Shown one piece after another: positions 7,499-34,400 of a stretch of DNA of 39,651 nucleotides. Below the pieces are notes generated by a model. The model had not been told where the DNA came from. It made no database searches and saw nothing but the letters and a program-made list of their open reading frames with translations. The DNA comes from Syntrophorhabdus sp. PtaU1.Bin058. GTDB lineage: Bacteria > Desulfobacterota > Syntrophorhabdia > Syntrophorhabdales > Syntrophorhabdaceae. The position numbers were made by a program, and so were the translations under genes. The stretch lies in contig MVRS01000223.1 in assembly GCA_002067975.1 (NCBI GenBank), positions 1 through 39,651 on the forward strand, given 5' to 3'. Position 1 is the stretch's first letter; each line of letters starts with the position of its first letter.

Positions 7499-7645
7499 AG
7501 TATTTCGTATACCGTACATCGTATATCGTAAGGAATCTCTTGCAGTCCACACTATACGTCATTGCCAGTATTCAAGTATCCAGATGGGTATCCGATTCTC
7601 TTGCAGTTCACTATATACGATATACGAAATACGATATACTATGCA
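7499..7645. repeat. intergenic word-array island with inverted arms and an internal direct repeat
   Basis: The left arm (7499-7530) has CGTAT/CGTATATCG words. The right arm (7612-7641) has the reverse complement (ATATACGATATACGAAATACG). Between them, ATCTCTTGCAGT (7535-7546) and ATTCTCTTGCAGTTCACTA (7595-7613) are near-identical direct copies of about 24 bp flanking AGTATCCAG-type words that recur at 17117-17160. The 7437-7755 gap otherwise holds only the terminator and the ribosome site of the next gene. Confidence 0.6.
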
Positions 7646-8578: not shown

Positions 8579-8655
8579 AACGTTGAACGTTGAACATAGA
8601 ACGTTGAACAGCTTTTTGTCCCCTTACGACTTACCACTTACGAATTACGGGTTTA
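8579..8655. repeat. word-array island: GTTGAAC words then CTTACG words
   Basis: AACGTTGAACGTTGAAC-type words (8579-8610) are followed by AGCTTTTTGTCCCC and then by CTTACGACTTACC and ACTTACGAATTACGGG words. The same composite order (GTTGAAC block, AGCTTTT link, CTTACG or CTCACG block) occurs in reverse complement at 15564-15601. It ends about 10 bp before the start codon of the MFS gene, so it makes up that gene's leader. Confidence 0.6.
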
Positions 8656-17004: not shown

Positions 17005-17160
17005 TTTCGCTTTTCACTCTCAGCTCTCCGCTCCAAGCTCTCTGCTGCCTTTATTGCTGATAGCTGAGAGCTGAAAGCTGTTAGCTGAATAAGTCACCGG
17101 TATACAGCGACGAGAGACCAGTGACGAGTATCGAGTATCCAGTATCGAGCATCCAGTGTC
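17005..17160. repeat. word-array island of three families upstream of the STAS operon
   Basis: CTCAGCTCTCCGCTCC-type words (17016-17045) are followed by CTGCCTTTATT, then by GCTGATAGCTGAGAGCTGA and AAGCTGTTAGCTGA words (17057-17090), then by GACGAGTATCGAGTATCC and AGTATCGAGCATCCAGTG words (17125-17157). The CTGCCTTTA link also occurs at 31456-31464 and, as CTGCCTTTT, at 24952-24960. No promoter is obvious before the STAS gene start at 17243. Confidence 0.6.
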
Positions 17161-17242
17161 CGCCAACACCTTTGTCACACAAATTCTGTTGATTTTTCAA
17201 GGTCTTCCATTTAAAATGCTTAAAAAACCAGAAGGAGTTGTT

Positions 17243-23269: not shown

Positions 23270-23404
23270 CTAATAACTGATCGTATATCGTAGTTCGTAT
23301 ATAGGCCGTATATCGTATTTCGTATATCGTATATCGAAAAACCCGTAAGGCGTGAGACGTGACGGGAGAAAGGCAGCGGAGAGCGTAAGAGCCGAGAGCG
23401 AAGA
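23270..23404. repeat. word-array island after the efflux operon
   Basis: TAATAACTGATCGTATATCG then GTAGTTCGTATATAGG and CGTATATCGTATATCG words (23270-23337) run into CCCGTAAGGCGTGAGACG (23341-23358) and GGAGAGCGTAAGAGCCGAGAGCG words (23375-23400). The last group is the reverse complement of the CTCTTCGCTGCC block at 24920-24958. No gene is supported here. Confidence 0.6.
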
Positions 23405-25056: not shown

Positions 25057-26469
25057 ATGACTTCAACGCGCTTCAACAATTGGTCCGCTCAAGAGGGGAA
25101 GATGGATCTTAAACGGCTGTTTAAACCGGAAACAATGGCGGTCATCGGAGTTTCTCTCAACAACGAATCCCATCCGGCAAACGTCATATATAACAAAAAC
25201 CATCTCCGTTACCAGATCCCGGTCTATGCGGTAAACAGCAAGGGCGGCCTGATCCGCGGAGAGCCCGTGTACCCGAAGATCGGCGATATCCCGGCAAAGA
25301 TCGACCTGGCGATCATCGCCACGAAGGCCGACATTGTCCCCACGGTGACGGCTGAATGCATTGAGGCCGGCGTGGGAGGCGCAGTGGTCATTTCAGGCGG
25401 ATTTTCAGAGGCAGGCTTTACCGATCTCCAGGACAGGCTTGTATCAACGGCAAGGGAGGCCGGTTTCCCGTTCATCGGGCCCAATTGCCTCGGGATCTTC
25501 TCCCCTTTCCTCATGGACACCTTCTTCATACCGGGCGAGAGGATGGTAATACCGCGTAAGGGGAAAGTTGCCATGGTCAGCCAGAGCGGGGGTATTCTTG
25601 TAGACCATATGGCCAAATGCGCCCTCGAAGGGGTCGGGGTGTCGCTTGCCGTCAGCATAGGCAACAAGGCCCTCATCAACGAGATCGATATGCTCAAATA
25701 TCTCAGCGAAGACCCCGGGACCGAGGTGATCACCTTTTACCTTGAGGGGTTTGACGAAAACGAGGGACGGGCATTCGTGCTTGCCGCAGCAACATGCGGA
25801 AAGCCCGTGATCGTCCTCAAATCAGGCAGAACACCCGCGGGAAGCAATGCCGTGAAGAGCCACACGGCGTCGATCGCCGGTGATTACGAGGTCTTTTCTT
25901 CTGTCATGGCGCAGCATGGAGTGGTTGAGGCAACGGACGAGTATGAGATCGTGACCTTTGCCGAGTCCCTCAGTTGTTATAAAAAAACGATCAACGGGAA
26001 CATCGGGATTATTACAGGCAGCGGGGGACACGGCGCCTTAGCTACCGATGCCTGCCTCTCCCATGGGCTCAAGGTGCCGAGATTCAGCGAAGCGGAACAG
26101 GCAGAGCTTCACAACAGCGTATCGCCGACAATAAAGAATATTGCATCTTTCAGTAATCCGGTGGACCTTACAGGGAGTGCGACGGATGACGATTTTGTGG
26201 CAGCAGCCCTCACCTTAAGCAGAAACAACAATATAGAATGCATCATCGTGCTGCTTCTCCCCTATCTCCCCGGGATCACCATGGACCTCGGGGCCAGGCT
26301 GAACTTTGTCTATCAACAGGAGGGCAAGCCTATCGTGGCGTATGTGCCCCACGTGGACAAATACAGCATGCTCATCGACGGCTTTACATTAAACAATATG
26401 CCCGTTGCCCATACCGTAGAAGACGCAGTGCACATGGCGGAGGCGATGAGGAGGTACAGACCATGCTAG
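25057..26469 (+). CDS. acyl-/acetyl-CoA synthetase (ADP-forming), alpha-type subunit
   Basis: The 470-residue protein has the CoA-binding Rossmann domain (AVIGVS at 28-33), GPNCLGIF (141-148), the succinyl-CoA-synthetase-like ligase part (VAMVSQSGG at 171-179) and SHTASIAGD, where H269 is the likely phosphohistidine. Such enzymes couple hydrolysis of an acyl-CoA to ATP formation from ADP, typical of peptide or acid-fermenting anaerobes. Substrate preference is not visible. ATG 25057 has AAAGG 6 nt upstream; ATG 25102 (MDLKRLF) also has a ribosome site (GAGGGG) and may be the true start. Its last codons lie in a 53-bp tandem duplication. Confidence 0.9.
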   Translation: MTSTRFNNWSAQEGKMDLKRLFKPETMAVIGVSLNNESHPANVIYNKNHLRYQIPVYAVNSKGGLIRGEPVYPKIGDIPAKIDLAIIATKADIVPTVTAECIEAGVGGAVVISGGFSEAGFTDLQDRLVSTAREAGFPFIGPNCLGIFSPFLMDTFFIPGERMVIPRKGKVAMVSQSGGILVDHMAKCALEGVGVSLAVSIGNKALINEIDMLKYLSEDPGTEVITFYLEGFDENEGRAFVLAAATCGKPVIVLKSGRTPAGSNAVKSHTASIAGDYEVFSSVMAQHGVVEATDEYEIVTFAESLSCYKKTINGNIGIITGSGGHGALATDACLSHGLKVPRFSEAEQAELHNSVSPTIKNIASFSNPVDLTGSATDDDFVAAALTLSRNNNIECIIVLLLPYLPGITMDLGARLNFVYQQEGKPIVAYVPHVDKYSMLIDGFTLNNMPVAHTVEDAVHMAEAMRRYRPC

Positions 26470-26515
26470 TTAAAGACGCAGTGCACATGGCGGAGGCGAT
26501 GAGGAGGTACAGACC
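26420..26515. repeat. 43-bp tandem duplication (period 53) at the alpha-beta junction
   Basis: Positions 26420-26462 and 26473-26515 are identical over 43 bp. The first copy encodes the alpha-subunit end (DAVHMAEAMRRYRP). The second is intergenic and carries the GAGGAGG that serves the beta start. The copies are identical at every position, so the event is probably recent or is kept by recombination. Confidence 0.92.
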
Positions 26516-26525
26516 GTCATGTTAA
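26463..26525 (+). CDS. 20-codon coupling ORF between the synthetase subunits
   Basis: This ORF starts at ATG 26463, which overlaps the alpha stop as ATGCTAG (7 bp). It ends in TAA 26523-26525, which overlaps the beta start as ATGTTAA (7 bp). It reads MLVKDAVHMAEAMRRYRPSC, so most of it repeats the alpha C-terminus through the tandem duplication. The ribosome site for ATG 26463 is GAGGAGG in the first copy. The peptide is probably not functional; the ORF likely passes ribosomes from alpha to beta. Confidence 0.5.
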   Translation: MLVKDAVHMAEAMRRYRPSC

Positions 26526-27199
26526 GGGAAGAGGTCCTCTCATTACTGTCTGAAGCATCTTCAAGAGGATGGCTGATGGAGCCGCAGGCAAAAGAGGTCT
26601 TTCGTCTCGCCGGTCTCGATGTGACACGGTTCCTCTGGACGGAAAAGATTCAGGAGGCAGCCCGGTTTGCCTCTGAGATCGGGTATCCTGTAGTTGCAAA
26701 GGTGGTCTCCCCTGAAGTGATCCACAAATCCGATGTCTCCGGGGTCGTCCTCGGGATCTCCAACGATAAGCAGCTCGGAGAGGCCTTTAAGGCGATGAGT
26801 ACGATCAGGGGATTCCAGGGGGTCATTGTGGAGGAGACGGTGCGCGGGACGGAGCTCATCCTGGGGATGAAGCTGGATAAACAATTCGGGCCCATTATCA
26901 TGCTCGGAACGGGCGGGACGGCAGTGGAGATATACAAGGACGTGGCGATCAGGATGGCGCCGCTTCGTGAACAGGATATCGAATCCATGCTGACGTCCCT
27001 CAAGGCACGTCCTCTCCTTGAAGGATACAGGGGCGCAGAGCCGATCAGCGTCGAGGCCCTCAAAACGATGCTCCTCGCCTTTTCATCGCTGGTTATGGAA
27101 TTCGAAAACAAGGTGGAATCGATAGACCTGAACCCGGTTATCTGCAACGCCTCGCGGTGCGTGATAACCGATGCACGGATAATGCTCGCCGGCCGTTAA
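26519..27199 (+). CDS. acyl-/acetyl-CoA synthetase (ADP-forming), beta-type (ATP-grasp) subunit
   Basis: The 226-residue protein is an ATP-grasp_5 domain: EAKxVFRLAGLDVTR-like N-terminus (AKEVFRLAGLDVTRF), VVAKVVSPEVIHKSDVSGVVLGI (57-79), the EETVRGTELILGMKLDKQFGPIIMLGTGG nucleotide region and the Mg-binding ESIDLNPVI near the end. It takes the phosphate from the alpha phosphohistidine and transfers it to ADP. It pairs with the alpha subunit just upstream. The ATG has GAGGAGG 14 nt upstream in the duplicated segment, so coupling via the mini-ORF is likely important. Confidence 0.9.
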   Translation: MLREEVLSLLSEASSRGWLMEPQAKEVFRLAGLDVTRFLWTEKIQEAARFASEIGYPVVAKVVSPEVIHKSDVSGVVLGISNDKQLGEAFKAMSTIRGFQGVIVEETVRGTELILGMKLDKQFGPIIMLGTGGTAVEIYKDVAIRMAPLREQDIESMLTSLKARPLLEGYRGAEPISVEALKTMLLAFSSLVMEFENKVESIDLNPVICNASRCVITDARIMLAGR

Positions 27200-27233: not shown

Positions 27234-27290
27234 CGTAAGGCGTGAGGCGATTTAACCCCTTACGACTTACGCCTCACGCCTTACGGGTAT
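27234..27290. terminator. 16-bp inverted word-array repeat between converging genes
   Basis: CGTAAGGCGTGAGGCG (27234-27249) is exactly complementary to CGCCTCACGCCTTACG (27270-27285), with a 20-nt loop containing CTTACGACTTACG-type words. It lies between the beta subunit (plus) and the phosphatase (minus) genes. It can act as a terminator for both, but T-runs are short. It is the clearest case of an array folded into a perfect inverted repeat. Confidence 0.55.
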
Positions 27291-31387: not shown

Positions 31388-31457
31388 AGTCCCTTTACGC
31401 CTTACGGCTTACGGGTTTATGCTTCTCACTATTCACTGTTCACTATCGACTATTCAC
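31388..31457. repeat. word-array island: CTTACG words then ATTCACT words
   Basis: CCCTTTACGCCTTACGGC, TTACGGG, then TTCTCACTATTCACTGTTC and ACTATCGACTATTCACTGCC follow each other. The stop codon of the RND gene (31450-31452) lies inside the last ATTCACT word, so the array extends into the end of the reading frame and encodes its last residues (G-S-E). The CTGCCTTTA link at 31456-31464 is shared with 17042-17050. Confidence 0.6.
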
Positions 31458-34400
31458 TGCCTTTATCCTTTTTTCTCCTCCGTCCAAACCACCTGTTCAG
31501 CTCATCGAAATAGACGTAAAAGACGGGTGTTATATAGAGCGTCATGAGCTGGGAGAGAAAAAGGCCGCCGACAACCGCCACACCCATGGGCTGGCGCGCA
31601 TCGCCCCCTGCACCGATACCGAGCGCAATGGGCAGCGTACCAAAGAGCGCCGCCATCGTCGTCATCATGATAGGCCTGAAGCGGATCATGCAAGCCTTGT
31701 GGATCGATTCCACGGAGTCCAGCCCCTCTGTCCTCTCCGCCTCCAGTGCAAAGTCCACCATCATGATGCCGTTCTTCTTCGCGATCCCTATGAGCATGAT
31801 CATGCCCACCATGCCGTACATGTCAAGCTCCATCCCGAAGATCCACAAGGTCACAAGCGCCCCGCATGCCGCCAGCGGCAAAGCGGTCAGGATCGTAATG
31901 GGATGGATGAAGCTTTCATAGAGGATGCCGAGGACCATATATATGACAAGGACCGTCACGAAAAGCAGAAAACCCATACTCGCAAAGGATTTCTCGAATT
32001 CCTGTGCAGACCCCTGGAATCCCGTCACGATCGACTGGGGCAGGTTTACTTCCCTTGATATCTTCTTTGTAGCATCGACTGCCTCTCCTATCGAGTGGCC
32101 GGGCTTGAGGTTGAATGCTACGGTGGCGGAATTAAGCTGACCGGTATGGTTCACGTTCAGCGGCCCCAGGGTCTCAACGATATGTGCGACGGTGGCGAGG
32201 GGTACCTGTTTCCCCTCGTTTGACTTCACGTAGAGGTAGGACAGGGCGCTCGGATCTTCCTTGAACTGTGGCTGCACCTCGAGTATCACGTAGTACTGGT
32301 TGAGCGCTCCGTAGATCGTGGATATCTTCCGCGAGGCATAGGCTGAGAAAAAGGTATTCTGTATCTGATCAAGGCTTAAGCCCAGCGTTGACGCCTTGTC
32401 CCTGTCGATGTTTATATACAGTTTAGGATTGTTCAACTTTACATCGGAGTTGACATCAACGAGACCGGGGATTATCCGCATCTTGTCTTCAAAGATCTTC
32501 GCATATTTGTAAAGCTCGTTGAGGTCCGAGCTCTGGAGCGTAAACTGGTATTCGGCAAGTGCGCTGCCTGCGCCTATCTGGATCGGGGGCGGGTTCTGCG
32601 GAAAGGCAACAAGGCCGGGGACGCTGTTCAGCTTCGGCCTTAGATCATTGACGATCTCATCGACGGACCTTTTGCGGTCCTTCAGGTCCTTGAGCATGGC
32701 AAATACGATACCGTTGTTATAGGTATTTAAACTCGCAACGGATATAAAGTCCTTTATATCCTCTTCCTGCCTTAAGATCTCGTTGGCCGCCTCCTGGTGC
32801 CGGACCATATCGTCATAGGATATCTTGTCGGCAGCCTGTATCCATGCCATCATGAAGTTCTGATCCTGGCTGGGCAGGAACCCCTTCGGAATTTTCATAA
32901 AGAGGAACGCCGAGATGATGACGACGATGATCGTAGCGGCGAGCGCCAGCCTGCGGTGCTGCAATACCAGCCGGAGGGTGCGGCCGTAGAACCTGATCAT
33001 GCCCTCAAAAACATGTTCAGTTGCGGCGTAGAACCTGCCTTCTTTCTTTTCCTTCACATCCTTGAGTATGCGGCTGCACATCATCGGCGTGAGCGTCAGC
33101 GATATGAAGCCTGAGAGGAGTATGGCCGCGGCAATACAGACTGCGAACTCATGGAAGAGCTTGCCCACAATACCGGGCATAAAAAGGATCGGTATGAAGA
33201 CGACCACGAGGGAAAGGGTCATGGACATGATCGTAAAACCTATCTCCTGCGAGCCGTTATAGGACGCATCCATGGCGCTTTCACCCATTTCCATGCGCCG
33301 CACAATGTTCTCAAGGACAACGATCGCGTCATCGACAACGAGCCCCACGCAGAGAACGAGGGCCATCATGGAGAGGTTGTTGAGGCTGAAGCCCCGCACA
33401 CTCATCACCGCAAAGGTGCCGATAATCGACAGGGGAACGGCAACGTTCGGGATAATGGTTGACCTGAAGGAACGGAGAAAGAGATACACGATGACAAGGA
33501 CGATCAAGATCGTCAGGACCAGGGTAAATTCGACGTCATCGATCGATTCCTTTATGTAATCGGACGCATCGTAGAGGAGGTGCCACTCAACGGACTCAGG
33601 CAGCATCGTCTTCAGCCTTGGGAGCAATTGCTCGATCCCGTCCGCCACCTTTACCGTATTCGACCCGGGCTGTTTCTTGATGGCGAGAACGATCGCCCTC
33701 TGGGCCTTGTCCTTTGAGATGTACCAGGAGGCAAATTGTTTATCGTTCTGGGTGCCGCTGATCGCATCACCGATATCCTTGACCTTCACGGGTTTGCCGT
33801 TCTGGTAGGTGACGATAACGTCCCTGTACGCCTCTCCGATCATCAACTGGCCGTTTGAGTCGATCGTAAAGGCCTGGAAGGGGCCGTCGAGCGTCCCCCC
33901 GGGGAGATTGACGTTTGCCTTCTGGACCGCGCCGGAGACATCGTCGATGCCTATGCCCATGTTTGCAAGGAGCTTCGGGTTTACCTGGATGCGGGCCGCA
34001 AACTTCTGCCCGTACACGATAACCTGAGAGACACCGTTGACCATCGTGAAGTTCTGGGCAAGGTAATTCTCCGCGTAATCGTTGAGCTGGATAAGCGGCA
34101 TGGAATCGGAGGTAAGGGCAAAGTACATGATGGGCTGGTCCGACGGGTTCACCTTGTCATACGTAGGGGGGCTCGGCATGTTGCTCGGCAGGTCTCCCTG
34201 GGCCGCTGCGAGCTTTGCGTTCACGTCCTGCGCGCAGGCATCGATATTCCGTTCGAGGGAGAACTGGAGGATGATCGTCGTAGAGCCGGTATAGCTCGTT
34301 GACGACATCGACGCAAGACCCTGGATCGTCGAGAACTGCTTCTCAAGGGGTTTGGCCACGTTTGACGCCATCGTCTCCGGGCTTGCCCCCGGCAGGGATG

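Follow-up and report, generated by a model that had tools for sequence, protein, structure and literature searches.

Short inserts that keep neighbouring genes connected are known from mycobacteria, where MIRUs are short units with small ORFs that overlap both contiguous genes (PMC4473831). According to later accounts, they were first described in the operon of a two-component system (Supply et al., 1997, via PMC12548453 and PMC4473831), and their insertion is thought to be possible with little effect on expression (PMC12548453). A second group of systems comprises overlapping gene pairs joined by termination-reinitiation, in which the overlap is most commonly 4 or 1 nt (Huber et al., 2019, 2023). 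The distance between stop and start matters in such coupling: when the stop was moved to +38 nt in E. coli gene pairs, coupled reinitiation fell by 80-100% (PMC10666635). In a third arrangement, a short upstream ORF feeds a coupled gene, its stop overlapping the start of the main gene (PMC12548453).

Here we compare with these systems the junction of two subunit genes of a probable acyl-CoA synthetase in Syntrophorhabdus sp. PtaU1.Bin058. The window, by which we mean the whole stretch of DNA that was analysed, is 39,651 nucleotides long, and all features of the junction lie on its forward strand. The junction resembles a MIRU site in that a short insert stands between co-directional genes and carries a small ORF overlapping both, so that coupling can outlast the insertion. 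It differs in that MIRUs are dispersed, apparently mobile and have -4 nt coupling, whereas the insert here copies the host junction next to itself, was found at one place and overlaps its neighbours by 7 nt. With the termination-reinitiation pairs it shares a stop-start overlap of genes whose products are subunits of one heteromeric enzyme; here, in contrast, the putative coupling would run over two overlaps of 7 nt that follow each other through a 20-codon ORF. As with the short upstream ORFs, the stop of a short ORF overlaps the start of the next gene, but this ORF is internal to the operon and encodes a repeat of the end of the protein before it. We found no description in the open-access literature of a relay made by duplication of a gene junction.

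The gene pair and its relay ORF

The upstream gene (25057-26469, 470 aa) encodes the putative alpha subunit of an ADP-forming acyl/acetate-CoA synthetase, with CoA-binding and Succ_CoA_lig domains (PF13380, PF13607). Against TIGR02717 (ADP-forming acetate--CoA ligase alpha subunit) it scores 357.5 bits, below the curated equivalog cutoff of 567, and we therefore assign no substrate; it belongs to the same superfamily. The downstream gene (26519-27199, 226 aa), starting at ATG 26519, encodes the beta subunit (ATP-grasp_5; PF13549, E 7.4e-63), which is 83-86% identical to its congeneric homologues from residue 1 on. As a pair, the two have the look of a two-subunit ADP-forming acyl-CoA synthetase. 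In the Pyrococcus ACS, for example, a CoA-binding/flavodoxin-like alpha subunit is likewise separate from an ATP-grasp beta subunit (PMC3942289), the difference being that the present pair is bacterial, with genes adjacent and overlapping.

At the junction of the two genes lies an exact direct repeat of 43 bp (26420-26462 and 26473-26515) with a spacing of 53 bp, as the initial annotation had it. A repeat of this length and exactness cannot be chance. The alpha gene ends at TAG (26467-26469), and the distance from this stop to the beta start is +49 nt. The gap is bridged by the relay ORF (26463-26525; MLVKDAVHMAEAMRRYRPSC*), 20 codons reading ATG CTA GTT ... TGT TAA, which by itself matched neither Pfam nor NCBIfam and whose product repeats the C-terminal tail of alpha. 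Its start overlaps the alpha stop in ATGCTAG (26463-26469), and its stop overlaps the beta start in ATGTTAA (26519-26525). The small ORF and both overlaps were described correctly at the outset. They have the stop-start form associated with termination-reinitiation coupling, and the ORF has the same direction as both contiguous ORFs and overlaps them at its ends, as in MIRUs. The ORF listing gives the relay ORF as the tail of a longer frame of 95 aa that has its ATG further upstream, at 26238, inside alpha. The part of that frame upstream of ATG 26463 is the alpha gene read off-frame; ATG 26463 is the start that has a Shine-Dalgarno (SD) sequence.

Each copy of the repeat brings an SD. The ancestral beta SD is encoded within the last alpha codons (AGGAGG, Arg-Arg), and the AGGAGG of copy 1 (26449-26454) stands 8 nt before ATG 26463. 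The copied AGGAGG (26502-26507) stands 11 nt before the beta ATG. Either forms an anti-SD duplex of -13.7 kcal/mol. Folding predictions gave no unusual RNA structure at the junction (z = +0.57), and the RNA model has the start codon of beta largely base-paired.

Single-copy relatives and the ancestral overlap

The junctions of 14 genomes of the family that have the same gene pair, three of them congeneric, were aligned with that of the window. A scan of contigs yielded three loci only, those of Deltaproteobacteria bacterium UBA6106 and UBA7527 (GTDB congeners) and of one more distant MAG. The junction is single-copy in all 14 homologous loci, and the window has two copies at the same place, with 56 extra bases. 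The ancestral state is therefore single-copy and that of the window derived. The comparison thus bears out the suggestions of single-copy ancestry and of an origin of both overlaps by duplication.

An alpha-stop/beta-start overlap of the form ATGNTRA is present in 13 of the 14, reading ATGCTAA in the closest relative (G003) and in G004 and ATGCTGA or similar in the others. In the fourteenth (G014, L009) the junction reads ATACTGA, with ATA where the beta ATG is expected; judging from these letters, its beta gene must use another or an unusual start codon. The initial annotation had proposed ATGTTAA as the ancestral overlap. Given G003, G004 and copy 1 itself, ATGCTAA is more likely to have been the ancestral form.

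The protein ends are untouched. The alpha C-terminus (...EDAVHMAEAMRRYRPC) is the same as in G003, and G004 has it with a single K for R. The beta N-terminus (MLREE...) is identical in the window and in G003, whose contig stops about 194 bases into beta (G003:C146:3-194), so that this comparison takes in the junction and residues 1 to 64 of beta. At the level of the predicted proteins, alpha and beta are thus shown to be intact after the duplication, with neither end changed. The claim that the duplication made alpha end at TAG accordingly holds for the codon, which the 53-bp unit described below explains, and fails for the protein, the end of which has not moved.

The divergence from G003 also gives a relative date. 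In the shared core, four of 43 sites (9.3%) are different in G003, and the whole-gene divergence is 11.8% for alpha (88.2% identical) and 10.3% for beta (89.7% identical, as far as the relative's contig carries the gene). Since the core is as diverged from G003 as the genes are, yet the two copies are identical in it, most of that divergence had built up before the duplication.

The duplication and its frame arithmetic

The simplest event would be a tandem duplication of a 53-bp unit, GTAG...ATGCTA. Copy 1 (26416-26468) is 53 bp long and matches G003 at 10 of 10 edge positions, that is, everywhere outside the 43-bp core. Copy 2 (26469-26524) is 56 bp long: its core is identical, and its edges have GTTA for GTAG, an inserted GTC and ATGTTA for ATGCTA, which amounts to three substitutions and one in-frame insertion of 3 nt. 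The alpha stop is TAG rather than TAA because the TA that ends the first unit meets the G that begins the second. When the homologous 53-bp unit of G003 was duplicated in silico, alpha likewise came to end in TAG, and a relay of 19 aa (MLVEDAVHMAEAMRRYRPC) appeared. The duplication could also be read in another register, AAGAC...TTA, in which copy 1 has gained CTAG and copy 2 has gained GTC; this leaves unexplained why copy 1 should end in the ATGCTA of the relatives. We also looked for templated filler from nearby DNA: within about 400 bp, on either strand, nothing of at least 8 bp matched except the sequence itself.

The length of the unit is what creates the relay. For 13 relatives, we simulated every tandem duplication of 20-120 bp across the overlap. 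A relay ORF arose in 99% of cases when the length was 2 mod 3 and in 0% at other lengths, and units covering the whole overlap preserved the alpha stop in every case. The 53-bp unit falls into the 2 mod 3 class, which makes the relay ORF a by-product of arithmetic; it is expected from the length, and no selection is needed for its origin.

The course of events may then have been as follows. A recent, lineage-specific duplication of 53 bp would have occurred across an ancestral alpha-beta overlap (AGGAGGTACAGACC ATGCTAA). Copy 1 would have retained the full alpha C-terminus and stop, and copy 2 the beta SD and start, which accounts for both proteins being unchanged. The old beta start, now in copy 1, would read copy 2 in the alpha frame and run to the copied alpha stop, where it meets the beta start. 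The relay ORF is probably translated, given the ancestral SD at 8 nt and the overlap with the alpha stop, and beta is probably made both by direct initiation at the copied SD and by reinitiation from the relay. With two routes to beta, the duplication would be near neutral. We consider it likely that this joint explanation, a recent 53-bp duplication with the relay as by-product and a near-neutral effect, is the right one.

The placement of the differences between the copies is a complication. All four events fall in about 10 of the 53 positions, at the edges, and none in the 43-bp core; were the events random, the probability of this would be about 0.001. Such a pattern is not what one would expect of a simple duplication with random mutation afterwards. 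It could stem from a complex one-step event, from selection on the core or from an assembly fault, and we prefer none of these.

Rival readings and wider meaning

The edge-only differences are among the points that could be taken for an assembly artefact, in which the tandem arrangement in the MAG would come from variants of two strains or from a faulty joining of contigs. The assembly is fragmented (3.4 Mb in 263 contigs), and an exact overlap of 43 bp is about the size of an assembler k-mer. The junction, however, is internal to a contig of 39.6 kb, has no Ns and leaves both reading frames intact. Moreover, in sampled stretches of the same assembly totalling 273 kb, it is the sole close exact duplication of 30 bp or longer inside coding DNA, and the sample gave no sign of a widespread fault that makes such duplications. 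On balance we regard an artefact as quite unlikely. Far less probable still, to the point of being hardly credible, is the insertion of a dispersed MIRU-like mobile repeat with its own ORF. Its appeal lies in the matching architecture, with a small ORF that reaches into both neighbouring genes (PMC12548453, PMC4473831); but the inserted DNA copies the adjacent alpha end rather than a dispersed unit, and the alpha-beta DNA, used as a query against the own genome, matches this place only. On these grounds the mobile insert was rejected.

A more serious contender is that the relay is functional, beta being dependent on termination-reinitiation from the mini-ORF and the relay having been kept by selection since the duplication. 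Without the relay, the +49 nt from alpha stop to beta start would exceed the published range of coupling (PMC10666635); direct alpha-beta coupling should thus fail, and the relay would take its place. Coupling from alpha to beta via the relay is plausible on the sequence. The changes in copy 2 all preserve the frame (the 3-nt insertion; silent GTA>GTT and TGC>TGT; missense GAA>AAA), and the ATGNTAA overlap has been retained there. These features hint at use of the relay, but they amount to just four changes in one genome. The beta SD spacing of 11 nt rather than 8 and the predicted pairing of the beta start also favour dependence, although pairing of the start codon is variable in the relatives too (unpaired fraction 0.01-0.62 in the RNA model). 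Against dependence stands also that the relay comes automatically with the 53-bp length and that a full SD precedes beta: because the whole AGGAGG was duplicated along, beta can start alone, and it may be independent of the relay. The proposal of the initial annotation that the relay maintains coupling because the two subunits are required in equal amounts is thus conjectural. A selected, functional relay is therefore a possibility that we take seriously and yet lean against.

The recent duplication with an automatic relay thus stays the preferred reading. Overall, the duplicated junction is a real feature of the sequence, is derived and is probably recent, and its relay, neat as it is, comes automatically with a mostly ordinary local mutation.

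The frame rule itself reaches beyond this locus. For overlaps of this type, any tandem duplication across the overlap with a length of 2 mod 3 automatically yields intact proteins and a small ORF that links them. The rule cautions against taking such relay ORFs as designed, and it is open to testing across prokaryotic genomes. If the present relay is used, the junction is a natural experiment on the tolerance of coupling to insertions and on the birth of small ORFs inside operons. One could go further and see in junction duplications of this length a self-repairing class of mutation, in which the relay ORF is always built, the proteins stay whole and stop-start coupling is restored; they would then be a general and tolerated way for operon overlaps to grow longer and for new small ORFs to arise, with the present junction as a young functional case. 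This generalization is speculative, and we hold it to be rather doubtful.

Finally, the window and the rest of the genome contain repeats of other kinds. Many short arrays with a 7-bp period occur, in the window at 189-381, 7500-7639, 8579-8649, 17056-17161, 23280-23336, 27258-27285 and 31426-31458, and also at L065:27-150; their motifs include ATCGTAT, GTATATC, CTTACGA and TCACTAT, among others. Another contig of the same genome, C210, starts with an array of 79-bp period made of similar ACTATCG-type repeats, the other long array seen in the 273-kb sample, and it also has a homopolymer run of 27 C or more (L065:14905).
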